From Akkermansia sp. (lineage in GTDB: Bacteria > Verrucomicrobiota > Verrucomicrobiia > Verrucomicrobiales > Akkermansiaceae): a DNA stretch of 36,251 bases. This document shows, piece after piece, positions 4,756-32,761 of the stretch. Position numbers and translations under genes: made by a program. Below the pieces are notes generated by a model. That model was not told the DNA's origin. It saw nothing but the letters and a program-made list of their open reading frames with translations, and searched no databases. The stretch is from positions 1 to 36,251 of the forward strand of contig JAUNQN010000030.1 in the NCBI GenBank assembly GCA_030536145.1. Direction: 5' to 3'. Every line of letters starts with the position of its first letter. Position 1 is the first letter of the stretch.

Positions 4756-7677
4756 ATGCGGGTCTGTACTCCCGCCGCCAAGACAATGAAATGCCTACCG
4801 ACCATCCTGACGTTGCTCGGGAGCGTGACCGCCGCATCCGCTGCGGTCAGCCCCGTGTACCCCACCCCGCAGCAGTGCACCCTGAAAGCTGAGAGCACCA
4901 AGGTGACAGAGGTGAAGATACAGCACCGCGCCGCCAAGGCCAAGGGCGATATCTGGGCCAAGCTGCCGGAGAAAGAAGGCGCCTACGCCATCCGCATCAC
5001 CCCCGGCAAGCTGGAGGTGTACGTGAACACCGACAAGGCCACCGGCAAGGCCGAGCAGCTGGGCGTGTACTACGCCAAGCAGACCGTGAGCCAGCTGCTC
5101 AAGGACGTGCCTGGCGCCAAGGACGCCCAGCGCGACCCGTTCCCCGACATGAAAATCAAGGAGGTGGCCCAGCTGGGCGAGCTGCCCTGCGGCACCATCA
5201 TCGACTGGCCGGACCTGGCCTACCGCGGCACCGTGGAGGGCTATTACGGCATCCCGTGGGGCGGAGAGGCCCGCAAGTCCCAGTTTGCCTTCTACGGCCG
5301 CAACAAGATGAACTACTACCTGTATGCGCCGAAGGACGACCCCTACCACCACGGCGGCGGCTGCTATGAGCTGTACCCGGCGGACAAGGCTGCGGAGCTG
5401 AAGGACCAGATTACCTGCGCCCGCAAGAACCACGTGCGCTTTGTGTGGGGCATCCACCCCGCCAACACCGTGAAATGGGGTGAGAACGGCGGCAAGAAGC
5501 AGCTGGACGGCCTGTGCACCAAGCTCCAGCAGCTGTATGACCTGGGCGTGCGGGACTTTGCCGTGCTGGTGGATGATTCCGGCGGCGAGATCTGCAAGCC
5601 GGAGCGCCAGGTGCAGCTCTGCAACTACATCCTGGAAAACTTTATCCGCAAGCACCCGGATGTGAACCAGGACCTGGTGATGTGCCCCACCGGCTACAAC
5701 CGCAGCTGGACCAACCCGGATTTCCTGGGCAAGCTGGGCAACGGGCTGGACAAGTCCATCCACGTGATGTGGACGGGCGATACCGTGGTGCACGATATCA
5801 CGCTCTCCGGCCAGCAGTGGGTGCATGAGAAACTGGGCCGCCCCACCTTCATCTGGTGGAACTGGCCCTGCTCTGATTTCAAGGCAAGCCGTCTCTCCAT
5901 GGGCCGCACGTACGGCAACGGCCAGGAGGAGCAGATGCGCAAGGAGATGACCGGATTTGTGGCCAACCCCATGGAGCGCGCAGAGGCCAGCAAGGTGGGC
6001 CTCTTCGGCGTGGCGGACTACACCTGGAACATCTGCGGGTTCGATTCCGAGAACTCCTGGCACCAGGGCATCGACCGCCTGTACCCCACCTGCGCGGATG
6101 CCATGCAGGTGTTCTGCAAGCACAACTCCTGGCTGCTGCCCAACGGCCACGGCTACTACCGTGAGGAGTCCGTGGGCATTGCAGACGACGCCAAGGCCTA
6201 CACCGAATCCCTGAAGGCCGGCAAGGCGGACCTTTCCAAGGTAGGCAAGCTGCAGGACGAGTACAAGGAGATTGCCAAGGCCGCCAAGGCTATCCGCAAG
6301 GCCCCCGGCATGGAGACCCTGCAGAAGGAGATTGCCAATTGGATTGACGCCTTCGAGTACACCGGCCAGGCCGGTTCCGCCGCCCTCTCCAGCCTGGAGG
6401 AGAAGGACACCGCCAAGGCCCTGCAGCAGATGCTGAAGGCCGCAGACAAGATGTACACCGTGGCCAACATGGAGCGCACCGCATGGCGCAACGGCTCCGT
6501 GCAGAACGTGAAGGGCGTGGAGGTGGCCATGCTGGCCATGACCCCCGCCATCACGGAGACCCTGAACTACGTGAACTCCCGCGTGTACGGAGAGCTCAGC
6601 GGCCGCAAGGGCGGCAGCGGCAAGCCCGTGTTCACCAGCAGCCTGGGGGATCCCCAGAAGGATGCCCGCAACATCTCCGACGGCGATCCCGGCACCCTGT
6701 GGCATTCCGGCTGCGGCCAGGGCAAGGAATGCTGGATTGGCCTGGACTGCGGCGGTGAGACGGATATCCGCACCGTGAACCTGCAGATGGGCGGCCGCTA
6801 TGCCAAGGACTTCATCCCCCGCGGCCAGATGGAATACTCCACGGACGGCAAGGACTGGAAGCCCATGGGCGCTGCCACGGCCGGTGCCTCCGTGGCCATC
6901 AGCAACGAGACCCCCGTGCATGCCCGCTACCTGCGCTACCGCTCCCTGGAGACCGCTCCCAACTGGCTCTCCGTGTGTGAATTCACGGTGAACCGCCGCC
7001 TGCCCGCCACGGTGAAGACCACCATCCCCGGCCTGGCTGCCGCCTCCACCTACCGCGATGACAAGTCCGTGGGCCTGAATCGCATCTTCGAGGTGGCCAA
7101 GGCCGCCCCCGGCAGCACCATTGAGCTGATTCTCTCTGCTCCCCGTACCGCCACCTGGCTGGAGGTGGAGCTGGACAACGCCTCCGTGGCCGACTGGGCC
7201 AAGGTGGAGCTCAACATGGGCAACGGCAAGTACCGTGAAATCAAGCCCGCCAAGGACGGCAAGAAGCTGGTGGTGCGCACCAACGCCATGCCCAAGGAGC
7301 CCGTGGCAGGTTTCCGCCTCACCCACACCGGCTCCGCAGAGCAGGAGGTGAAGCTCAACACCTTCAAGCTGGACATGCCGGCAGACGACCCCGCCACGGA
7401 TCCCTATTCCCTGTCAGACACGGACCTGACCTCCGCGTACGACCTGTCCCGCAACGCGCTGGACACCACACTGGAGGTCCCCGGCGCAGATGCAGGCAAG
7501 CCCGCCAAGACCATGCTGGTCATCGGTGACGGCACCTTCACCGCCGACGGTGCCAAGCTGCTGAAGACGGATGGCCGCGTGCACACCCTGGAGATTGCCC
7601 CCGGCACCTCCACCGTGACCCTGAAGGCTCCCAAGCAGGAAGGCAAGCGCATCAACGAGGTTATCTTCAAGAACTGA
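4756..7677 (+). CDS. Secreted GH84 beta-N-acetylglucosaminidase with CBM32-like domain
   Basis: A large exported glycosidase (973 residues) that would remove terminal beta-linked GlcNAc from host mucin O-glycans or similar glycoconjugates. After an N-terminal signal peptide (cleavage after about residue 29, ASA) comes a GH20b-like N-domain. The GH84 barrel carries EGYYGIPW (161-168), the NYYLYAPKDDPYH stretch (187-199) and the paired catalytic aspartates in LVDDSGG (D273, D274). A helical spacer follows, then a discoidin/CBM32-like domain (about 623-745) and a further C-terminal beta region (about 750-973). An in-frame ATG at 4786 gives a more compact signal peptide. I report 4756 because the promoter places transcription start there. 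A strong terminator follows. No partner gene is co-transcribed. Confidence 0.88.
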   Translation: MRVCTPAAKTMKCLPTILTLLGSVTAASAAVSPVYPTPQQCTLKAESTKVTEVKIQHRAAKAKGDIWAKLPEKEGAYAIRITPGKLEVYVNTDKATGKAEQLGVYYAKQTVSQLLKDVPGAKDAQRDPFPDMKIKEVAQLGELPCGTIIDWPDLAYRGTVEGYYGIPWGGEARKSQFAFYGRNKMNYYLYAPKDDPYHHGGGCYELYPADKAAELKDQITCARKNHVRFVWGIHPANTVKWGENGGKKQLDGLCTKLQQLYDLGVRDFAVLVDDSGGEICKPERQVQLCNYILENFIRKHPDVNQDLVMCPTGYNRSWTNPDFLGKLGNGLDKSIHVMWTGDTVVHDITLSGQQWVHEKLGRPTFIWWNWPCSDFKASRLSMGRTYGNGQEEQMRKEMTGFVANPMERAEASKVGLFGVADYTWNICGFDSENSWHQGIDRLYPTCADAMQVFCKHNSWLLPNGHGYYREESVGIADDAKAYTESLKAGKADLSKVGKLQDEYKEIAKAAKAIRKAPGMETLQKEIANWIDAFEYTGQAGSAALSSLEEKDTAKALQQMLKAADKMYTVANMERTAWRNGSVQNVKGVEVAMLAMTPAITETLNYVNSRVYGELSGRKGGSGKPVFTSSLGDPQKDARNISDGDPGTLWHSGCGQGKECWIGLDCGGETDIRTVNLQMGGRYAKDFIPRGQMEYSTDGKDWKPMGAATAGASVAISNETPVHARYLRYRSLETAPNWLSVCEFTVNRRLPATVKTTIPGLAAASTYRDDKSVGLNRIFEVAKAAPGSTIELILSAPRTATWLEVELDNASVADWAKVELNMGNGKYREIKPAKDGKKLVVRTNAMPKEPVAGFRLTHTGSAEQEVKLNTFKLDMPADDPATDPYSLSDTDLTSAYDLSRNALDTTLEVPGADAGKPAKTMLVIGDGTFTADGAKLLKTDGRVHTLEIAPGTSTVTLKAPKQEGKRINEVIFKN

Positions 7678-10058: not shown

Positions 10059-11348
10059 ATGAAAAAGACACTGTTGACCGTTAGTCTCATGCTGGCCGCG
10101 CTGGCTCCCGCCGTGCAGGCCGCCTCCGTTTCTTTCCCGGATGTGGTGAAAGCCAAGGAAACCGCCAAGTCCCAGGGCAAGCCCGCCCTCATCCTCTGGT
10201 ACGGGTCAGACTGGATGCAGGATTCCGCCGGGCTGGTGAAGGAGTGGAACGCCCTCTGCAAGCAGGATATTCCCGTTGTCTTCGGCCAGTTCGACGACAA
10301 GACCGGGCAGACATCCGACGCGCGCCGCAAGACCATGGGCGAGCTGAAGATGGAGGGCTACAACCTGCCCATGGCCGTGCTCCTGGCTCCGGACGGCACC
10401 TTTGTGGCCTGCTACGAAGGCAAGACCGTGCGCTCTGCGGATGCCATGGCCAAGGCCCTGAAGAAGATGCTGGAGAAGGTGCCGGACTTCATGAAGAAGG
10501 TGGAGGAGGCCCGCAAGCTCACCGGCAAGGATGCCGCCACCGCCGCCGGCAAGGCCCTGGCCATGCTCCCGGAGAAGGATGCACGCCGCCACAAGGAGCT
10601 GAACGATATCCTGCGCAAGCAGGACAAGGACAACGCCGCAGGGTACACCGCGGTGTACGCCATGGACCACATGGCCATGTACAAGGAAATCAACAATGTC
10701 CTGCAGGGCGGCCCGGACGGCAAGCTCAAGGATGGTAACCGCAAGTTTGCCGCCGCCGAGAAGTACGTGCTGGATACCATGAAGGCCTCCGGCCTGGACA
10801 AGGGCGGCAAGAAGAACCAGGAGGCCCAGCAGCAGTGGCTCGCCGGCCTCTCCTACGTCTACCGTGAGCATTTCAAGGCCACCAAGGGGGAGGGAGAGCG
10901 CTCCAGGCTCCTGAAGGCCCTGGACGACTGCATCAAGGTGAACCCCAAGAGCCAGTACGGCATCGGCGCCGCCAAGTACAGGCACTACTGGGACCCCAAG
11001 TCCTTCACCCTCATCGAGAACATGTACTACAACCCCGGCGACCAGACCCACAATTTCGAGAAGGACTGGCACGTGGTGGTCACCAAGTCCATCTCCGGCG
11101 CGGGCACGTACGTGTTTGAGCTGGTGCCCCGTGAGAACGGCCGCCTGATCACGCGCAACTACCGCCTGGCCGTGAACGGCCGCGTGGTGGGTACCGCCAA
11201 TTCCCTGAACCCCAAGGACGACACCAAGAAGGCTGAATTCACCGTGCCGGCCGTGAAACCCGGCGACAAGGTGGAGGTGTGGCTCACCGCCGAATGCCGC
11301 GACGGCTGGTTCGGCTGCTCCGGTGAAATCAAGATGGAGAAGAAGTAA
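10059..11348 (+). CDS. Secreted thioredoxin-fold protein lacking the CxxC cysteines
   Basis: A 429-residue exported protein with a signal peptide (1-21, ending VQA). The N-terminal half aligns by eye with the active thioredoxin-fold protein at 3360-4610. The shared GSDW motif (49-52) is followed by MQDS instead of CGAC, so both redox cysteines are replaced (M53, S56). The cis-Pro strand (LPMAVLL) is retained. A helical middle region and a C-terminal beta-rich domain (about 310-429) follow, with no motif I recognise. Without cysteines it is unlikely to be an oxidoreductase; a binding or scaffolding role is possible. It is 14 nt downstream of the transglutaminase-like gene and presumably co-transcribed. 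The ATG at 10059 is chosen because it begins the signal peptide. Confidence 0.72.
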   Translation: MKKTLLTVSLMLAALAPAVQAASVSFPDVVKAKETAKSQGKPALILWYGSDWMQDSAGLVKEWNALCKQDIPVVFGQFDDKTGQTSDARRKTMGELKMEGYNLPMAVLLAPDGTFVACYEGKTVRSADAMAKALKKMLEKVPDFMKKVEEARKLTGKDAATAAGKALAMLPEKDARRHKELNDILRKQDKDNAAGYTAVYAMDHMAMYKEINNVLQGGPDGKLKDGNRKFAAAEKYVLDTMKASGLDKGGKKNQEAQQQWLAGLSYVYREHFKATKGEGERSRLLKALDDCIKVNPKSQYGIGAAKYRHYWDPKSFTLIENMYYNPGDQTHNFEKDWHVVVTKSISGAGTYVFELVPRENGRLITRNYRLAVNGRVVGTANSLNPKDDTKKAEFTVPAVKPGDKVEVWLTAECRDGWFGCSGEIKMEKK

Positions 11349-11442
11349 CCCCGGCCGGGCGGGCCTCGGTTCCGCCCCCCCCCTGATACCGAATCCCGAA
11401 TAAAAAATCTCAATCCTGAATCCCAATCTCCCGTCTCTGTTC

Positions 11443-11471
11443 TTGCAACAAGGCGGGAGATGTGCTAGGAT
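11443..11471 (+). promoter_or_regulatory. Promoter of guaA
   Basis: TTGCAA (11443-11448), a 17-bp spacer and TAGGAT (11466-11471). The ATG at 11483 is 11 nt downstream, leaving a leader of about 5 nt. Confidence 0.65.
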
Positions 11472-11482
11472 TCCCGCGAGTT

Positions 11483-13006
11483 ATGACCCCCAAACACATA
11501 GTTGCCGTTATAGACTACGGTTCACAGTACACGCAGCTGATTGTGCGCCGCGTGCGTGAACTGGGCTTCCTTGCCAAGCTGTACGCCTTGGAGGACCTGC
11601 ATGAAATCAGCGAGCCGGGCGCCATCATCCTTTCCGGCGGCCCCCGCAGCACATCGGAACCGGATGCCCCGGATATCGACTTTGAGTGGCTGACCTCCTT
11701 CGGCGTGCCCGTGCTGGGCGTGTGCTACGGCATGCAGCTGCTCAACATCAAGACCGGCGGCACCGTACGCAAGAGCAACAAGCGCGAGTACGGCCCCGCC
11801 GCCCTGGTGCCGGACAAGCTGGAGGGCCTGTATGCCGGCATGTCCCCCTCCTCCCAGGTGTGGATGAGCCATTCCGACACGGTGGACCACCTGGCGGACA
11901 ACTGCAAGGTCATCGCCCGCAACAGCGAGGGCGTGCCCGTCTCCCTGCAGTGGGGGGAGCAGATGTTCGGCATCCAGTTCCACCCGGAGGTGACCCACTC
12001 CCACGAGGGGCGCACCATCCTGAAGAATTTCCTTTCCTATGCCAAGGACCTGGCCAAGTTCGACATCGGCGACTTCAAGCGCGAGCTCATCGAGGACATC
12101 CGCGCCAAGGTGGGCGACAAGCAGGTGGTCTGCGGCGTCTCCGGCGGCGTGGACAGCACCGTGCTGGCCGTGCTGCTGCATGAGGCCGGCGTGAACGTGC
12201 GCTGCATCTTTGTGGACAACGGCCTGCTCCGCAAGGACGAGGCCAGGGAGGTGCAGGAGAACTTCCGCCGCATGGGCGTGGAGATTGAGACCGTGGACGC
12301 CTCCGCCCGTTTCCTGGAGACCCTGAAGGGCGAGCCCGCCCCGGAGAAGAAGCGCCGCATCATCGGCAACCTGTTCATCGACGTGTTCTGGGATGCCGTG
12401 GGCGATGCGGAGATGCTGGCCCAGGGCACCCTGTACCCGGATGTGATTGAGAGCGCCTCCAACGCCAAGAGCAAGGCCTCCGTCATCAAGACCCACCACA
12501 ACCGCGTGGAGCGCGTGCTGGAGATGCAGGCCCAGGGCAAGGTGATTGAGCCGCTGGCCTTCCTGTTCAAGGACGAGGTGCGCGAGCTGGGCGCCTCCAT
12601 GGGCATTGAGCATGACATCCTGTGGCGCCACCCCTTCCCGGGCCCCGGCCTGGCCGTGCGCTGCCCCGGAGAGGTGACCAAGGACCGCCTGGACATCATC
12701 CGCGACTGCGACGCCATCTTCATCGGCACCCTGCGCAAGTGGGGCTGGTATGACAAGTGCTGGCAGGCATACGCCGGCCTTATCCCCGTGAAGACCGTGG
12801 GCGTGAAGGGTGACGAGCGCTCCTACGAGTTCGCCACCAACCTGCGCGCCATCGTTTCAGAGGACGCCATGACCGCCGACTGGGTGCAGCTGCCCTACGA
12901 CCTGCTGCGCGAGGCCTCCAACCGCATCCTTAACGAGGTGAAGGGCATCAACCGCGTGCTCTATGATGTGAGCACCAAGCCCCCGGCAAGCATCGAGTGG
13001 GAATAA
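11483..13006 (+). CDS. guaA: GMP synthase (glutamine-hydrolysing)
   Basis: Converts XMP to GMP using glutamine and ATP, the last step of guanine nucleotide synthesis. This 507-residue protein has both halves of the enzyme. The class I glutamine amidotransferase has the nucleophile C81 in GVCYGMQ and the His-Glu pair in QFHPE. The ATP pyrophosphatase domain has the PP-loop GVSGGVDS. The C-terminal dimerisation domain ends in the typical KPPASIEWE. The frame is open upstream to 11462, but that region overlaps the -10 box, so ATG 11483 is the start. A strong terminator separates guaA from the alarmone/partner-switching operon downstream. guaB lies 3.8 kb further on. Confidence 0.97.
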   Translation: MTPKHIVAVIDYGSQYTQLIVRRVRELGFLAKLYALEDLHEISEPGAIILSGGPRSTSEPDAPDIDFEWLTSFGVPVLGVCYGMQLLNIKTGGTVRKSNKREYGPAALVPDKLEGLYAGMSPSSQVWMSHSDTVDHLADNCKVIARNSEGVPVSLQWGEQMFGIQFHPEVTHSHEGRTILKNFLSYAKDLAKFDIGDFKRELIEDIRAKVGDKQVVCGVSGGVDSTVLAVLLHEAGVNVRCIFVDNGLLRKDEAREVQENFRRMGVEIETVDASARFLETLKGEPAPEKKRRIIGNLFIDVFWDAVGDAEMLAQGTLYPDVIESASNAKSKASVIKTHHNRVERVLEMQAQGKVIEPLAFLFKDEVRELGASMGIEHDILWRHPFPGPGLAVRCPGEVTKDRLDIIRDCDAIFIGTLRKWGWYDKCWQAYAGLIPVKTVGVKGDERSYEFATNLRAIVSEDAMTADWVQLPYDLLREASNRILNEVKGINRVLYDVSTKPPASIEWE

Positions 13007-13105: not shown

Positions 13106-13134
13106 TTGACTCTGCGGGGGTGGCGGGGTAGTAT
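13106..13134 (+). promoter_or_regulatory. Promoter of STAS/(p)ppGpp/HD-STAS-kinase/RsbW-like operon
   Basis: TTGACT (13106-13111), a 17-bp spacer and TAGTAT (13129-13134). Unlike most promoters in the window, it leaves a leader of about 34 nt before the ATG at 13175. Confidence 0.7.
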
Positions 13135-13174
13135 GGTGGGCAGGGTATACCTGATACCCGCACCTTTTCCGGAT

Positions 13175-13477
13175 ATGAACGTACAGATAGAGCAGAACGA
13201 GAACCAGTACCGCGTGGCTCCGGCCGGGCGGCTGGATACCAACAGCGCGCCGCAGTTCCAGGAGGCCCTGGAGCCGCTTATGCAGGCCGTGCAGGCGCAC
13301 GTGACCGTGGATTGCAGCGGCCTGGAGTACACCTCCAGCCAGGGGCTGCGCCTGTTCCTGATGCTGCAGAAGAGCCTTTCCAAGAACGGCGGCAGCCTGG
13401 TGCTCACGGATATGCAGCCCGCGGTGAAGGAGGTATTCGACATCACAGGCTTTTCCAACATCATCACCATCCGCTAA
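13175..13477 (+). CDS. STAS-domain anti-anti-sigma factor (RsbV/SpoIIAA type)
   Basis: A 100-residue single-domain STAS protein. The typical pattern is visible: an opening strand, GRLDT at 18-22, VDCSGLEYTSSQGLR (45-59) and a closing helix. The phosphorylatable serine of the family corresponds to S55 (or S54) in TSSQGL. In partner switching, the unphosphorylated STAS protein binds an RsbW-type kinase and releases that kinase's target, and phosphorylation reverses this. The matching kinase is the last gene of the same operon (16320-16715). In-frame ATGs exist upstream at 13082 and 13133, but the promoter's -10 box overlaps 13133 and the domain begins at ATG 13175. First gene of a four-gene operon, 12 nt before the synthetase. 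Confidence 0.85.
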   Translation: MNVQIEQNENQYRVAPAGRLDTNSAPQFQEALEPLMQAVQAHVTVDCSGLEYTSSQGLRLFLMLQKSLSKNGGSLVLTDMQPAVKEVFDITGFSNIITIR

Positions 13478-13489
13478 GGATACGCCGCC

Positions 13490-14593
13490 ATGGAGCCTAG
13501 GGACGAGCGCGGGCTGGACCTGCACTGCCAGTGCATACTGGACGAGTACCGGGAGATGCTCCCTGTGTTCCAAAAGATGCAGGAGATAGTGGTGCAGCAG
13601 CTGCGGGAGTGCCTGGGGCGTTTCAATATCCTGGTCACGGCGGTGGAGGCCCGCGTGAAGTCTGAACCCAGCCTCATCGGCAAGCTGCAGCTCAAAGGCC
13701 GCAAGTACCGCACCCTGGCGGACCTTACGGATATTGTGGGCGCGCGCGTCATCACCTTCTACAGCGACGAGGTGGACAAGATAGCGGCGCTGGCGGAGGA
13801 CGTGTTCGAGGTGGACCGGCAGAACTCCGTGGACAAGCGCAAGATGCATGAGCTGGACAGTTTCGGCTACATGTCGCTGCACTACATCTGCCGCATACCG
13901 GAGAGCCTGTACCATGACCCGGCGCACCCGGAAATCAACGAGTACCGCTTTGAGCTGCAGATGCGCACCGCCCTGCAGCACGTGTGGGCCAATATCAACC
14001 ACGATACCGGCTACAAGACCGGGGTGGAGGTGCCGCACGAGCACCTGCGCTCCCTGATGCGCCTGGCGGGCATACTGGAGCTGGCTGACGAGGAGTTCAG
14101 CCGCCTGCGCCGCCAGATTACGGACTACCGCCGCAAGGTGCAGGGCCTGGTGAGCAGCGGGGATTTCAGTGAGGTGCGGCTCAACGGCGACACTTTCCGC
14201 AGCTACCTGGCCATCCATCCCTTTGAGCGGCTTACCGGGCGCATGGCCGCCATCAACCAGGCGGAGGTGACGCCCGGCCCGGTGTATGCCTACCTGCCGC
14301 TGCTGCAGGATATGGGGTTCCGCACCCTGGCGGATGTGGAGGCTATGAAGGCGGAATACGCCGAGGAGGCCTACCAGCTGGCGCTGCACCAGCTGGGCGG
14401 CACGGACCTGGATATCATCTCAGACACGCTGCCGCTGCAGAACCTGTGCGTGTGCCGCCTGCTGGCGCACGGGGCAGGGGAGCTGGAGCTGGCGCGCTTT
14501 TTCGAGGGCGTGAACGGCCCCGGCCCGTACAACATGGCCCAGGCACGCCGCACCATGGCGCTGTATGCCAGCCTGCATTCCAACAAGAGCTAA
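13490..14593 (+). CDS. RelA/SpoT-type (p)ppGpp synthetase without hydrolase domain
   Basis: A 367-residue protein whose N-terminal half is a RelA/SpoT nucleotidyltransferase (pyrophosphate transfer from ATP to GDP/GTP). Seen in sequence: RVKS (55-58), the metal-binding aspartate in DIVGARV (D81), FGYMSLH (125-131) and FELQMRT (154-160, with the Glu and Gln that contact substrate), so the catalytic set looks intact. It has no N-terminal HD hydrolase and no recognisable TGS or ACT regulatory domains. Residues about 180-367 are a helical extension I do not recognise, unusual for a small alarmone synthetase. It lies 12 nt after the STAS gene and 16 nt before a gene whose product carries the SpoT-type HD domain. 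Synthesis and degradation of the alarmone therefore appear to be split into neighbouring genes. Confidence 0.82.
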   Translation: MEPRDERGLDLHCQCILDEYREMLPVFQKMQEIVVQQLRECLGRFNILVTAVEARVKSEPSLIGKLQLKGRKYRTLADLTDIVGARVITFYSDEVDKIAALAEDVFEVDRQNSVDKRKMHELDSFGYMSLHYICRIPESLYHDPAHPEINEYRFELQMRTALQHVWANINHDTGYKTGVEVPHEHLRSLMRLAGILELADEEFSRLRRQITDYRRKVQGLVSSGDFSEVRLNGDTFRSYLAIHPFERLTGRMAAINQAEVTPGPVYAYLPLLQDMGFRTLADVEAMKAEYAEEAYQLALHQLGGTDLDIISDTLPLQNLCVCRLLAHGAGELELARFFEGVNGPGPYNMAQARRTMALYASLHSNKS

Positions 14594-14609
14594 GCACTTT
14601 CCACCGTGT

Positions 14610-16310
14610 ATGTCGTCGCACCGCATAGATACATCCCTCTTTGACCGCGCCGCCGCCTTTGCCGTGCGGGCGCATGCCGGCACGGAGCGCCGCGGCCAGG
14701 GGTTCCCGTACGTCATCCACTGCATGGAGGCCGCGTCCATTGTCTCCACCATGACTGCGGACCCGGAGCTGCTGGCCGCCGCCGTGCTGCATGATGTGGT
14801 GGAGGATACCCCCTGCACGGTGGAGGACCTGCGCGCAGAGTTTGGAGACCGCGTGGCGGAGCTGGTGGAGGCGGAGAGCGAGCAGCCGGTGCCCGGCATG
14901 TCCCCCGCCGCCAGCTGGAAGGAGCGCAAGACCGCCGCCATGCAGCGCCTGGCCGCCGCCCCGCGTGATGTGCAGGTGGTGGCCATGGGTGACAAGCTTT
15001 CCAACCTGCGCGCCATTGCGCGGGATTATGAGGCGCAGGGCAGCAAGACCTGGCAGAAGTTCCACTGCACGGATCCCGCCGCCCATGCCTGGCGCTGGCG
15101 CAGGCTGGAGGAGGTGTTCCGCTCCAGCCTGGGAGATACTGCCGCATTCCTGGAGTTCACCAAGCTGGTGAACCATGTCTTCCGCCAGACCAGCACGGGA
15201 TTCTCCTTCAGCCGGAAGGAGGACGGCACCCTGGCGGTGCAGGGCGTGGTGGATACGGCCGCAGCGCGGCAGCTGCTGCAGGCCATGGAGCCCGGCACCC
15301 CCTGCACGCTGGATTTTGCCCGCGTGCCGGATATAACATACGGCGCGGTGCGCGTGCTGCTGACCGCGCGCCAGGCGGGCAGCCTGTTCTACATCGTCTC
15401 CGCCCCGCGGGATACGGCCCAGCGGTTTGAGACAACCGGGGCCACCGCCTACATCAGCGTGTGCCGCCTGCCCCGCCATGTGGATATGAGCATGTACGAG
15501 GAAACGGGGGAGGGCGCCACCGCCACCAGCTATTTCCGCAAGGAAGGCGATACCATGCTCAAGCTCTACCGGGATTTCATCCCCCTGGCCGCCGTGCAGC
15601 GTGAGAAGCGTATTGCCAAGGCCGCCCTGCTCATGGGCATTCCCACCCCCATGACCGGGGATATCGTGACGGACGGGCACCGCACGGGCCTGGCGTTCGA
15701 GCGCATCCGCGGCAAGCGCTCCTTTGCCCGTATCATGAGCCAGGAGCCGGAGCGCGTGCCGGAGCTTTCCGTGACCTTTGCCCGCATGCTCAAGAAACTG
15801 CACGCCACCCCGTGCGACAAGGCGGTGTTCCCCTCTGCCGCGCAGTTCTACCGGGATGCCGTGGAGGCCTGCGCCTTCCTCTCCGCTGGGGAAAGGGGGC
15901 AGGTGCTGGATTTCCTGCGCAGCGTGCCGGAAACGGGCACCTGCCTGCACGGGGATGCCCACATCGGCAATGTCATCTCCAACGGGGAGGAGACCCTCTT
16001 CATCGACATGATGGACTTCAGCTGGGGCAACCCCATGTTTGACGTGGCCATGGTCCGTTTCTCCTGCATGAAGGAGAACCGGCGCCTGTATGAGCACCAG
16101 TTCCATGTGCAGTACCCGGTCATGGCGCAGTTCTGGAATGTCTTTGTTCGGGAATACTTCGGCATCTCCACCGATGAGGAGGCCGCCGCTGCCGCCGCCC
16201 GCGTGGACAAGTTTGCCGCCGTGCGCGCCATCTACCTGGATGAGCTGGTGCGCGGCATCCCCTGGGTGGAGGGCTTTGTCCGCCGCACCTTCTTCCCGCC
16301 CCAATCCTGA
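14610..16310 (+). CDS. HD (p)ppGpp hydrolase-like + STAS + APH-type kinase fusion
   Basis: A 566-residue three-domain protein. Residues 1-190 form a SpoT-type HD phosphohydrolase with H22, H37, the HDVVEDT motif (61-67) and GDKLSN (127-132), the residues that bind Mn and hydrolyse the 3'-pyrophosphate of (p)ppGpp. Residues about 196-292 form a STAS-like domain; the usual phospho-serine position is Tyr (ITYGAVR, Y244), so it looks non-phosphorylatable. Residues about 305-560 form an aminoglycoside-phosphotransferase-like kinase with a Lys in MLKLYRD (K318), the catalytic loop LHGDAHIGN (446-454, D449) and FIDMMDF (D466, D469). The start at ATG 14610 avoids overlap with the synthetase; an in-frame ATG at 14565 exists. 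The phosphorylation target is unknown. It ends 9 nt before the RsbW-like gene. Confidence 0.8.
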   Translation: MSSHRIDTSLFDRAAAFAVRAHAGTERRGQGFPYVIHCMEAASIVSTMTADPELLAAAVLHDVVEDTPCTVEDLRAEFGDRVAELVEAESEQPVPGMSPAASWKERKTAAMQRLAAAPRDVQVVAMGDKLSNLRAIARDYEAQGSKTWQKFHCTDPAAHAWRWRRLEEVFRSSLGDTAAFLEFTKLVNHVFRQTSTGFSFSRKEDGTLAVQGVVDTAAARQLLQAMEPGTPCTLDFARVPDITYGAVRVLLTARQAGSLFYIVSAPRDTAQRFETTGATAYISVCRLPRHVDMSMYEETGEGATATSYFRKEGDTMLKLYRDFIPLAAVQREKRIAKAALLMGIPTPMTGDIVTDGHRTGLAFERIRGKRSFARIMSQEPERVPELSVTFARMLKKLHATPCDKAVFPSAAQFYRDAVEACAFLSAGERGQVLDFLRSVPETGTCLHGDAHIGNVISNGEETLFIDMMDFSWGNPMFDVAMVRFSCMKENRRLYEHQFHVQYPVMAQFWNVFVREYFGISTDEEAAAAAARVDKFAAVRAIYLDELVRGIPWVEGFVRRTFFPPQS

Positions 16311-16319
16311 TTTCCCGCC

Positions 16320-16715
16320 ATGTACCAGCGCTTTGAACCCATTGCAGGAATAGCCGGCGTCATCATAGATGCCGTCATGGACTCCCCGGACATGCCGCAG
16401 GACCCGGCCCTGCTGCTGAAGATACGCCTGGCGGTGGAGGAGAGCGTGGAAAACATCGTGAACTACGCCTATGAGAACGGGTCCGGCTACCTGGAGGCTG
16501 CCACGGAGCGCTCCGGCAGCCTGCTCGCCATCACCCTGAAGGACGCCGGCACCCCCTTCAACCCCCTGGACAGGGAAGACCCGGATATCACCCTCTCCGC
16601 AGAGGAACGCCCCATCGGCGGCCTCGGCATCTTCCTCTGCAAGCAGCTCATGGATTCCGTGGAATACGCCTACCGGGACGGCTGCAACGTGCTCACCCTG
16701 CGGAAGGAAGTGTAG
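16320..16715 (+). CDS. RsbW/SpoIIAB-type anti-sigma factor ATPase (HATPase_c)
   Basis: A 131-residue GHKL ATPase of the anti-sigma serine-kinase type. Seen: an N-box in EESVENIVNYAYE (E44, N45, N48), a G1-type KDAGTPFNP (74-82) and a glycine-rich G2 GGLGIFL (100-106). Family members phosphorylate a cognate STAS protein and sequester a sigma factor or other target. The obvious STAS partner is the first gene of this operon, and the STAS domain in the preceding fusion is a second possible partner. No sigma factor and no PP2C phosphatase gene is present in the window, so the output and reset enzyme must lie elsewhere or differ. A terminator follows, closing the operon. Confidence 0.85.
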   Translation: MYQRFEPIAGIAGVIIDAVMDSPDMPQDPALLLKIRLAVEESVENIVNYAYENGSGYLEAATERSGSLLAITLKDAGTPFNPLDREDPDITLSAEERPIGGLGIFLCKQLMDSVEYAYRDGCNVLTLRKEV

Positions 16716-16722
16716 CTCCCCG

Positions 16723-16757
16723 TGCGGCCGGGGTACGGGGGCCGGCCGTATTTTTTT
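16723..16757 (+). terminator. Rho-independent terminator of the signalling operon
   Basis: Perfect stem CGGCCGG/CCGGCCG (16725-16731 and 16742-16748), extendable by two pairs including a G-U, with a 10-nt loop, followed by TATTTTTTT (16749-16757). Confidence 0.8.
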
Positions 16758-16779
16758 GCATGCGCCTGCAACATTAGGC

Positions 16780-16813: not shown

Positions 16814-18268
16814 ATGGAAGAAATTCAACTTGGACTGACATTTGATGACGTGCTCCTCCTGCCCTGCCTGAGCACGATCCTTCCCGGCGAAGCCGATCCC
16901 TCCTCCCAGCTGTGCCCGGGTATCCCGCTGCGCCTGCCGATTCTTTCCGCCCCCATGGATACGGTCACGGAAGTGGACATGGCCATCGCCATGGCCCGCG
17001 AGGGTGGCCTCGGCGTCATTCACCGCAACAACCGCGTGGAGGACCAGGCCGCCATGGTGGCCAAGGTCAAGCGCTTTGAGAACGCCGTGATCACCAAGCC
17101 CCTGACCGTGGCGCACGACATGAGCCTGAGCCAGGTGAAGCGCATCATGCTGGAGTACGGTTTCTCCGGTTTCCCCGTGGTGAACGCGGAGAACAAGCTG
17201 GAGGGCATCATCACCGGCCGTGATATGCGCGTGTTCGACGGCCATGACCTGGACAAGCTCACCGTGAAGGACGTGATGACGCCCATGGAGCGTCTGGTGA
17301 CTGCCGCCCCCTCCGTCTCCCAGGAGGAGGCCCGCAAGATTCTCTACTCCAACCGCATCGAGAAGCTGCCCCTGGTGGATGCCAACGGCTGCCTGGCCGG
17401 CATGATTACGGAGACGGACATCCGCAAGCGCGAGTCCTTCCAGGGCTCCACCAAGGATGAGCTGGGCCGCCTGCGCTGCGGTGCCGCCGTGGGTCCGGGC
17501 CCGGAGTTCATGGACCGCGCCCAGGCTGTGCTGGAGGCCGGTGCCGATGCCCTGTTCATCGATGCCGCCACCGGCCACACCAGCCGCGTGCTGTACGTTA
17601 TCGAGAAGCTCCGTGAGCTTGGCAAGCCCGTGGTGGCCGGCAATGTGGTCACCCAGGACGGCGCCCGCGACCTCATTTCCGCCGGTGCCAGCGCCATCAA
17701 GGTGGGTGTGGGCCCCGGCTCCATCTGCACCACCCGTATCATCTCCGGCGTGGGCATGCCCCAGTTCACCGCCATCCAGGAGGTGGCGAAGGTCACCCGC
17801 CCTGCCGGTGTCACCCTGATTGCCGACGGCGGTATCCGCTACTCCGGCGATGCCGTGAAGGCCCTGGCTGCCGGTGCAGACCTTATTATGCTGGGCGGCA
17901 TGCTGGCCGGCTGTGAGGAAAGCCCCGGTGCCGTGGTGCACTACCAGGGCCGCAATTTCAAGACCTACCGCGGCATGGGCTCCCTGGGCGCCATGCGTGC
18001 CGGCTCCAGCGACCGCTACGGCCAGAACGCCAGCGGCAAGATGGTGGCGGAGGGTGTGGAGGCCCGCGTGCCTTACAAGGGTATGCTGGCGGATGTCATC
18101 TTCCAGCTGGTGGGCGGCCTGCGCTCCGGCATGGGCTACTTGGGTGCCAAGGACCTGGCCGCCCTGCGGGACCACGCCCGCTTTGTCCGCATCACCAGCG
18201 GCGGCCTGCAGGAGAGCCACCCCCATGATGTCACCATCACGGAGGACCCGGGCAACTACTCCCGCTAA
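16814..18268 (+). CDS. guaB: IMP dehydrogenase
   Basis: Oxidises IMP to XMP with NAD+, the committed step to guanine nucleotides. This 484-residue protein has the full IMPDH layout. The catalytic barrel is interrupted by two CBS domains (about residues 92-205, with GFSGFPVV and KLPLVDA). The catalytic loop is GPGSICTT (300-307, C305). The IMP-binding DGGIRYSGD and the mobile-flap region are present, followed by the [11 protein letters not shown] segment. The CBS pair is where purine nucleotides act allosterically in this family. It has its own promoter and is followed by a strong bidirectional terminator shared with the convergent HAD gene. It lies directly after the (p)ppGpp operon. Confidence 0.97.
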
Positions 18269-31732: not shown

Positions 31733-32611
31733 CTACTCCAGGAACATGTCCTGCAGGCGGGCCATGTCATCCTCCCCCAGGCAGACCTGCTGCACCAGGT
31801 AGTTGTGCAGGGAGCCGAACTCCCGGTCCACCAGCTCCAGCGCCTTGGCAAAGCGGGCGGTGTTCACGCCGATGAAGGAGTGGAGCGCATCCAGCGCGGC
31901 GGGCTCGCAGCCCTGCTGCCGCATGTGGGCGGAGAGCGTGTCCAGCAGCTCCCGGTAGAAGAGGTTCGACATGTCGAAATCCGCCAGGATCAGCTCCCGG
32001 TCTGCCCCCAGGGCGGCCAGCAGCAGGGCGGAGCCTATGCCCGTGCGGTCTTTCCCCTGGGCGCAGTGCCACAGGATGGCGCCATCCTCCGTGGCGGCCA
32101 CGCGGTTCAGGAAGGTGGCGTACTGCAGCTGCGTGAACTCGCTGAACAGCAGGCGGGGATACATGGCGCGCGCCAGCGCCTGGCCGTCGCGGCTGCGGGC
32201 CAGCTCCATGAACATGGCATTGCCGGTGATGGCGGCGTCTCCCTTCGCCCCGCGCATCTCACCGCTGCGGGCGGCGGCCCTGGCCAGTGCCTGCCCCACT
32301 GCGCCCGTCCATTCGTCCTTGGCGGGCTCTATGGTGGGCAGCAGCATGTATCCCGCCCCCGGCACGGGGCGGTCCGGGGATTTCTCCGCCTCCCCCTCCG
32401 TGCGGAAATCTATGATTTGGCGCACGCGGTACACCTTCTCCAGGCGCTCCAGGTCGGCATCCGTGGCGGTGAACAGGTTGCCGCTGCGCAGCAGGCGCCC
32501 GGGGCGTATGCGGCGGCCGTCCGCCATCACGTAGCCGCCCAGGTCGCGGGCGTTTGCCACGCCCTGCAGGTGGATGGATTGCTGCTCAAATGTGATGCGC
32601 TGTGATTCCAT
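31733..32611 (-). CDS. Tyrosine-protein phosphatase family (Y_phosphatase3 type)
   Basis: A 292-residue phosphatase of the bacterial tyrosine/lipid phosphatase type related to M. tuberculosis PtpB. The P-loop HCAQGKDRTG (182-191) carries the catalytic C183 and R189, and the N-terminal NARDLGGY motif (20-27) and the LRSGNL stretch are typical. The Lys and Asp in the P-loop are the feature linked to phosphoinositide activity in this group. The protein is probably cytoplasmic, since no signal peptide is seen. In-frame ATGs at 32638 and 32695 are upstream of or inside the promoter -10, so ATG 32611 is used. Substrate unknown. Confidence 0.86.
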   Translation of the reverse strand: MESQRITFEQQSIHLQGVANARDLGGYVMADGRRIRPGRLLRSGNLFTATDADLERLEKVYRVRQIIDFRTEGEAEKSPDRPVPGAGYMLLPTIEPAKDEWTGAVGQALARAAARSGEMRGAKGDAAITGNAMFMELARSRDGQALARAMYPRLLFSEFTQLQYATFLNRVAATEDGAILWHCAQGKDRTGIGSALLLAALGADRELILADFDMSNLFYRELLDTLSAHMRQQGCEPAALDALHSFIGVNTARFAKALELVDREFGSLHNYLVQQVCLGEDDMARLQDMFLE

Positions 32612-32633
32612 GGGAAATGGGGGGACGGGCGGG

Positions 32634-32662
32634 AGCATACGCGCGGCGGGGGGCAAAGTCAA
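32634..32662 (-). promoter_or_regulatory. Promoter of tyrosine phosphatase gene
   Basis: On the minus strand, TTGACT (32657-32662), a 17-bp spacer and TATGCT (32634-32639). A leader of about 16 C-rich nt precedes the ATG at 32611. Confidence 0.65.
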
Positions 32663-32761
32663 GCCTGCGCATGCCTGCGGCGGGAAAAACGGCATAAAAA
32701 AGCATCCCGACCCGTTTTTTTGCTTTCCGCGCGGGCGCCTATTTGTTAAGATTCACCTGCT

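Follow-up and report, generated by a model that had tools for sequence, protein, structure and literature searches.

Architecture of the operon

A stretch of 36,251 nt from an Akkermansia sp. genome (assembly GCA_030536145.1, contig JAUNQN010000030.1, hereafter called the window) carries a four-gene operon in which genes for two enzymes, predicted to be a short alarmone synthetase and, as a protein of its own, an alarmone hydrolase, are joined to those of a STAS/RsbW partner switch. The switch most likely controls whether the synthetase is active. The genes, all on the forward (+) strand, encode a STAS protein, the synthetase (SYN), a hydrolase fusion (HDF) and an RsbW-type ATPase (RSBW), in that order and with intergenic gaps of 12, 16 and 9 nt, confirming the tight spacing described in an earlier note on this DNA. 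Pfam matches were obtained to STAS (E = 8e-19), RelA_SpoT (2e-15), HD_4 (5e-21) together with APH (3e-16), and HATPase_c_2 (5e-21). Most signals known to set (p)ppGpp come through ribosomes, TGS/ACT domains or single binding proteins. The partner switch is of a known kind, whereas its alarmone output would be new; in the literature search, which left most subscription papers outside its coverage, none of the matches listed described an alarmone synthetase controlled by a partner switch.

SYN (13490-14593, 367 aa) consists of a RelQ/RelP-like catalytic domain (residues ~15-215) followed by a helical C-terminal half (216-367). It is a stand-alone RelA_SpoT domain with the short alarmone synthetase (SAS) fold, nearest to RelQ/RelP in both sequence and structure comparison, the rows of the structure search (VIA) covering residues 1-218; its score against the YjbM (RelQ) equivalog model NF053588 was 46.5 bits, below the cut-off of 320. 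In contrast to SYN, the solved chains of RelQ/YjbM and RelP have ~180-240 residues and lack a C-terminal half of this type. The STAS protein (13175-13477, 100 aa) is RsbV/SpoIIAA-like, of the anti-anti-sigma type, and scored over the cut-off of TIGR00377 (ant_ant_sig); its phospho-acceptor S55 aligns with the serine of the RsbV DST motif. RSBW (16320-16715, 131 aa) is a GHKL ATPase of the RsbW/SpoIIAB type, a putative STAS kinase, over the cut-off for HATPase_c_2 and closest by sequence to solved RsbW structures.

Pfam divided HDF (14610-16310, 566 aa) into HD, STAS-like and APH-type domains. The HD_4 small-alarmone-hydrolase domain (residues 1-190, 14610-15179), supported by Pfam, motifs and fold, has both the motif residues and the fold of the small alarmone hydrolases (RelH/Mesh1-like). 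The STAS-like domain (residues ~191-300, 15180-15509), with a tyrosine at the phospho-acceptor position, gave a weak match (STAS_2, E = 0.0025, 18.4 bits against a cut-off of 29.2), and its predicted secondary structure follows the strand/helix order of the STAS fold. The third domain (15507-16157) bears the conserved HGD...N and ID..D motifs and scored 216 bits against TIGR02172, the cut-off being 228; Foldseek rows for HDF were HD and APH chains. Thus, of the HD, STAS and kinase parts read into this protein by the earlier note, the HD domain stood, the STAS part was retained as a weak, sub-threshold likeness, and the kinase is, by its sequence, of the APH/choline-kinase type and not a protein kinase.

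The motifs that the earlier note had called intact proved invariant in alignments from which sequences cut by contig ends were excluded, the window being included in each. The catalytic residues R55, K57, K65, D81, R86, Y127, H131, E155 and Q157 were kept in all SYN rows (n = 57/57), H22, H37, H61, D62, E65, D66, D128 and N132 in all HD rows (n = 43/43), and E41, N45, D75, G77, G101, L102 and G103 of the N, G1 and G2 boxes in all RSBW rows (n = 45/45). The phospho-serine site seen in the note was borne out as well, as every stand-alone STAS protein from the loci described below had a putative phospho-acceptor in the motif SS-x-GLR (45/45).

Linkage of the synthetase with the switch genes

Eighty loci were fetched with SYN, which is accordingly common to all of them; 60 formed the core set (L009-L067 and L085) and 20 contained distant SYN relatives. 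Gene order was mapped in 79 of the 80 (59 core and 20 distant, L010 being absent). In the 60 core loci, STAS and RSBW were each found 45 times, HD 43, SpoIIE 33 and APH 27 times, followed by NMT1 (13), Y_phosphatase3 (12), DAGK (9) and LuxR (7). At least one of STAS, RSBW and SpoIIE was present in 49 of the 60 core loci (35/39 with full flanks) and in none of the 20 distant loci (0/11 with full flanks), where HD occurred once (1/20), indicating that the linkage of SYN with the switch genes is not local chance. STAS and RSBW occurred together in 41 core loci, in 29 of them along with SpoIIE. The gene immediately before SYN was STAS in the window and in 15 of the 59 core loci mapped; in the mapped core loci, NMT1 preceded SpoIIE in 11, and RSBW adjoined SYN in three, always as a SpoIIE fusion.

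The C-terminal half of SYN is likely its regulatory part. Its identity to the window averaged 50% (residues 216-290) and 41% (291-367) in 43 core rows, and 17% and 19% in 12 distant rows, among which L066 was counted; for the catalytic half the values were 65% in core versus 42% in distant rows. A Pfam scan of the whole protein gave no TPR match, and this half is predicted to be helical.

A matching phosphatase elsewhere in the genome

The window operon lacks a SpoIIE gene, and the search for such a phosphatase called for by the earlier note yielded three in the host genome (G000). One, on contig C69, which is not the operon's, has PDC/Cache, HAMP and SpoIIE domains and shares 42-47% identity, from end to end, with 17 SpoIIEs from the core loci, whereas the other two gave partial-length matches of ~23-31% identity to the SpoIIEs of the loci. 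The C69 gene adjoins one for an NMT1-type binding protein, which shares 37-47% identity with its counterparts in 11 loci, and the SpoIIE of L014 has the same Cache/PDC, HAMP and SpoIIE domains. A STAS protein with a phosphorylatable serine, the boxes of a GHKL kinase and a SpoIIE phosphatase are found in the same system, as is usual for a partner switch.

Among 15 Akkermansia genomes searched, a full-length C69-type SpoIIE was found in the five with SYN (5/5) and in none of the ten without it (0/10); identity was 62-63% in the other four carriers, and partial matches (28-32%) were obtained in the ten SYN-negative genomes. RsbW showed the same distribution in 27 genomes, being present in the 17 SYN-positive ones (17/17; 5/5 among Akkermansia), including 11 with no switch gene in the SYN stretch, and absent from the ten SYN-negative ones (0/10), one of which (G047) has a different RelA_SpoT gene; its best matches to other genomes were 39-69% identical.

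A proposed route from an outside cue to the alarmone

By analogy with SiaC, which according to passages of PMC8457831 and PMC7647112 activates SiaD by binding to its stalk unless phosphorylated by SiaB, SYN would be the favoured target of the dephosphorylated STAS protein. An outside cue would act on the Cache domain of the membrane SpoIIE, helped by the adjoining NMT1-type protein, and would render the phosphatase active; genes for both are present on contig C69 of the same genome. Following the chemistry of the family, SpoIIE would take off S55 of STAS the phosphate put on by RsbW, and the dephosphorylated protein may then bind the helical C-terminal half of SYN and turn on (p)ppGpp-type synthesis in the style of SiaC and SiaD. 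The alarmone product would be cleared by the HD domain, the active site of which is intact. We infer every step between cue and alarmone. RSBW is often tied to another domain, being fused to SpoIIE in eight mapped core loci and to DAGK in six, which makes the free STAS protein the more plausible shuttle of the two.

With slightly better than even confidence, we regard the envelope sensor phosphatase, the STAS/RsbW switch and the split synthetase and hydrolase as one self-contained cassette that moves between gut phyla and gives an otherwise alarmone-free Akkermansia a (p)ppGpp-type signal set by an extracellular cue and not by stalled ribosomes. If so, a circuit of phosphatase, kinase and STAS protein would link outside cues to growth control via an alarmone synthetase, extending the partner switches of cyclic di-GMP (c-di-GMP; Sia, Hsb and Bgr) to alarmones. 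It would also be a natural experiment, in which a lineage poor in RelA/SpoT homologues (RSH) gained such enzymes together with their control circuit, raising the question of which ppGpp targets exist in a cell evolved without ppGpp.

Several observations weigh against a switch acting on the synthetase. HD is the direct neighbour of SYN in 35 of the 59 mapped core loci, versus 15 for STAS, and 11 of the 60 core loci have no switch gene in the stretch, and their RsbW, encoded elsewhere, could serve another target; seven of these lie in stretches shorter than 12.7 kb (L016, L019, L038, L047, L050, L053 and L056) and four have full flanks (L037, L054, L059 and L066). The Fibrobacter rows keep the C-terminal half of SYN (48% and 30-31% identity), yet their loci lack switch genes, and the LuxR-type gene behind SYN in Prevotella-type loci could itself be the target of the switch. 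The sensor part of RSBW-fused SpoIIEs varies, with a 5TMR-LYT membrane sensor in L058 and L067 and none found in L064, and the C69 SpoIIE, whose best NCBIfam match is SiaA, scored 66.3 bits against the SiaA model NF038263, far below the cut-off of 700. The genome-wide counts are uncorrected for kinship, and the five Akkermansia carriers form one clade. Finally, the gene order, whose conservation in relatives the earlier note had proposed to look for, varies among loci, while the gene content is kept; such a pattern speaks for genes that work together and less for a single cluster passed on by descent.

Alternative targets of the switch

A classical arrangement, in which RsbW binds and silences the synthetase until dephosphorylated STAS pulls it off, would follow the usual RsbW/SpoIIAB logic, and RSBW has all the GHKL boxes and matches RsbW structures. 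We consider it unlikely, as the SpoIIE (8) and DAGK (6) fusions of RSBW are awkward for a free inhibitor and STAS is the commoner neighbour of SYN (15 loci versus 3 for RSBW).

In the model of the earlier note, the STAS domain of the hydrolase is the docking site for RsbW, and the switch acts on hydrolysis instead of synthesis. The direct neighbourhood of SYN and HD mentioned above (35/59) agrees with this, as do the STAS-like domains of HDF in the window, L009-L012 and L064 and a STAS-APH fusion with an intact phospho-acceptor that adjoins HD in L067. Nevertheless, the insert is present in just five of the 43 HD-bearing core loci besides the window, its phospho-acceptor is replaced in all six copies (Tyr in Akkermansia, Ala in L064), and among the 41 loci with both STAS and RSBW, 15 lack an HD gene in the stretch examined. 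Because of these three observations the hydrolase is an improbable target, and this part of the earlier note is abandoned; its wider reading of an alarmone partner switch is kept, given that the enzymes and switch genes co-occur across phyla, that the genome search gave no long RSH and that a matching SpoIIE is present. The L067 fusion (11328-12503, acceptor motif YISSAGLR) is possibly an intermediate toward the HD-STAS-APH fusion of Akkermansia.

A toxin-antitoxin or phage-defence pair, with SYN as a toxic SAS of the tRNA or (p)ppApp type, HDF as its antitoxin and the switch genes as passengers, appears very improbable. Toxic synthetases with hydrolases for self-resistance exist (passages of PMC9765508), and SYN gave a partial match to the PADLOC defence candidate PDC-S33 (60.7 bits, residues 17-167); on the other hand, the near full-length match to PDC-S33 (369 bits) belongs to the other SAS of the same genome, SYN is nearest to RelQ/RelP, switch genes accompany it in 49 of the 60 core loci, and 17 of the 60 lack HD in the stretch. 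The defence reading of SYN was rejected, there being no full-length match to a PADLOC defence SAS. It is similarly far-fetched that the switch drives some other output (APH, Y_phosphatase3, LuxR or a distant sigma factor) with SYN merely co-expressed, since APH (27/60), Y_phosphatase3 (12), DAGK (9) and LuxR (7) do recur but none is as widespread as STAS (45) or RSBW (45), and no sigma-70 lay within 15 kb among the matches listed for 31 genomes.

A sigma factor as the neighbouring target was rejected on the same search, in which 246 sigma-70 matches were counted: among the matches listed, the nearest to SYN was at ~16 kb (G115), others on SYN contigs lying at 26-64 kb (G114, G115, G126 and G127). 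The host genome has four sigma-70 matches, two of them among those listed.

RSH genes and origin of the module

The host genome (2.63 Mb, 99.78% complete) gave two RelA_SpoT matches and a single HD_4 match, that of HDF. The search for another RSH proposed in the earlier note thus yielded no long RSH; the second RelA_SpoT gene (L002, contig C16, 988-2040, 351 aa), beside a gene that we take to be ribBA-like, matched PDC-S33 over nearly its full length (residues 6-347). A hidden long RSH was rejected, as no match to one was obtained. Whereas Rel, RelA and SpoT unite hydrolase and synthetase domains with TGS/ACT domains in a single chain, the two activities are here predicted from separate ORFs, with no TGS/ACT in the Pfam scan of the operon proteins.

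RelA_SpoT matches were found in five of 97 sampled genomes of the family, the host's included, and in 15 of 288 of the phylum (14 over the cut-off). In the part of Atkinson et al. 2011 consulted (PMC3153485), Verrucomicrobia scored zero in three taxa, and passages of an Akkermansia paper (PMC11804010) name ppGpp as an inhibitor of E. coli PurF and report no Akkermansia RSH. The search of carrier genomes for RelA_SpoT covered those of 35 of the 80 loci. SYN was the sole match in the other four Akkermansia carriers, whereas a RelA_SpoT ORF of at least 600 residues was also present in 30 of 31 non-Akkermansia carriers examined, G103 being the exception. From these counts, most carriers have the module on top of a long RSH, whereas the Akkermansia carriers have it by itself or alongside L002.

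In the SYN tree (66 rows, L067 left out), the five Akkermansia-type genomes formed one clade (support 100/99). This clade is one of the branches that leave the unresolved base of a largely Bacteroidota group, in which Fibrobacter and two Bacillota are also placed. This position and the rarity of RSH in the phylum point to a horizontal gain, in a tree that does not settle donor or direction, and in Akkermansia the module was likely gained as a stringent response by a lineage mostly without one. The host bacterium is probably gut-dwelling, judging from the nearest loci that carry an organism name.

Comparison with known systems

The SiaABCD system of Pseudomonas aeruginosa, in the passages cited above, is likewise a partner switch, made up of a phosphatase of the PP2C type, a kinase and a protein resembling anti-sigma antagonists, with a nucleotide second-messenger synthetase as output. 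It differs in that SiaD is a diguanylate cyclase producing c-di-GMP and SiaC belongs to DUF1987, whereas here a canonical STAS protein accompanies an alarmone synthetase and a hydrolase; no GGDEF domain was found in the Pfam scan of the four operon proteins, leaving RelA_SpoT as the candidate output. In HsbA-HsbD and BgrV-BgrR, STAS phosphorylation also decides the activity of a second-messenger enzyme, again a diguanylate cyclase, so that the signal is c-di-GMP and not an alarmone (passages of PMC8457831).

Treponema denticola offers an enzymatic parallel, with a short synthetase (Tde-SAS, DsRel) that has a helical C-terminal regulatory half, a separate hydrolase (Tde-SAH) and no long RSH. 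Its C-terminal half is a brake, and the authors speculate that protein binding releases it. Unlike the Akkermansia genes, the two lie at separate loci by their tags (TDE1711 and TDE1690), no partner switch is described in the passages of that paper, and the C-terminal half consists of TPR, not found by Pfam in SYN (PMC10434055, in part).

For the individual proteins, the HD domain of HDF resembled RelH of Corynebacterium glutamicum (7qoc and 7qod) in fold (target-normalised TM 0.86-0.90) and sequence, RelH being a single domain to which HDF adds the STAS-like and APH domains. The closest solved kinase and STAS by sequence were those of Bacillus RsbW/RsbV (6m36). The Bacillus pair controls a sigma factor, whereas near SYN there was no sigma-70 among the matches listed.

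Operon boundaries, neighbouring genes and other loci

Both the promoter and the terminator proposed in the earlier note can be seen, the former with less weight than the note had given it. A sigma-70-like promoter (TTGACT-17-TAGTAT, 13106-13134, + strand, 9/12 consensus matches) lies upstream of the operon, but such sites are about as frequent in shuffled sequence (two found versus a mean of 1.0, sd 1.1). A terminator-like stem-loop with a T-run follows RSBW (16722-16758, + strand, RNAfold -18.8 kcal/mol); the terminator scan omitted it because its loop has 10 nt and the scan allows 3-8. Over the window, the promoter and terminator scans gave sites not above the shuffles.

The operon sits between genes that we take to be guaA (11462-13006) and guaB (IMP dehydrogenase, 16814-18268, + strand), presumably both for GMP synthesis; enzymes of GTP metabolism are known ppGpp targets elsewhere. 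guaB is the next gene downstream, as in G097, G099 and G100; it thus follows the operon in four of the five Akkermansia carriers, at distances of 98, 85, 383 and 981 bp, while G098, the remaining carrier, is split over contigs. A meaning for this guaA-operon-guaB setting was rejected, as guaA is upstream in the window only, being absent from the stretches of G097, G099 and G100; guaB and guaA are neighbours in seven of ten Akkermansia without SYN. A search for an empty insertion site in G002, G071 and G084 showed none, guaB alone giving an alignment in the stretches retrieved.

A Y_phosphatase3 protein (31733-32695, - strand), whose relatives lie inside or beside the operon in other carriers, is 70-72% identical to a copy directly upstream of STAS in L012, which has two such genes, and ~36-42% identical to the copies of other operons, so it may be a detached accessory of the operon. 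Elsewhere in the window, a GH84 beta-N-acetylglucosaminidase with an F5/8 type C domain (4756-7677) precedes two proteins that, judged by eye, appear to be secreted, which would fit mucin breakdown.

In the Prevotella-type loci L039, L040, L042, L048, L051, L052 and L085, an ABC transporter, a 267-aa protein with no Pfam match (domains scanned in L039 only), RSBW, STAS and SYN precede the LuxR-type regulator. In the Fibrobacter loci L050, L053, L054 and L056, HD stands directly before SYN, with no switch genes in the stretch, and an EF-G-like GTPase lies directly behind SYN in the first three (domain scan of L050 only), L056 ending earlier. The DAGK-type RSBW fusions, YegS/diacylglycerol-kinase-like, occur in L022, L025, L028, L032, L033 and L065 (domains scanned in L028); with the APH, PRK-like and PAP2 genes of various loci, they suggest a possible lipid or sugar-phosphate link of the system.

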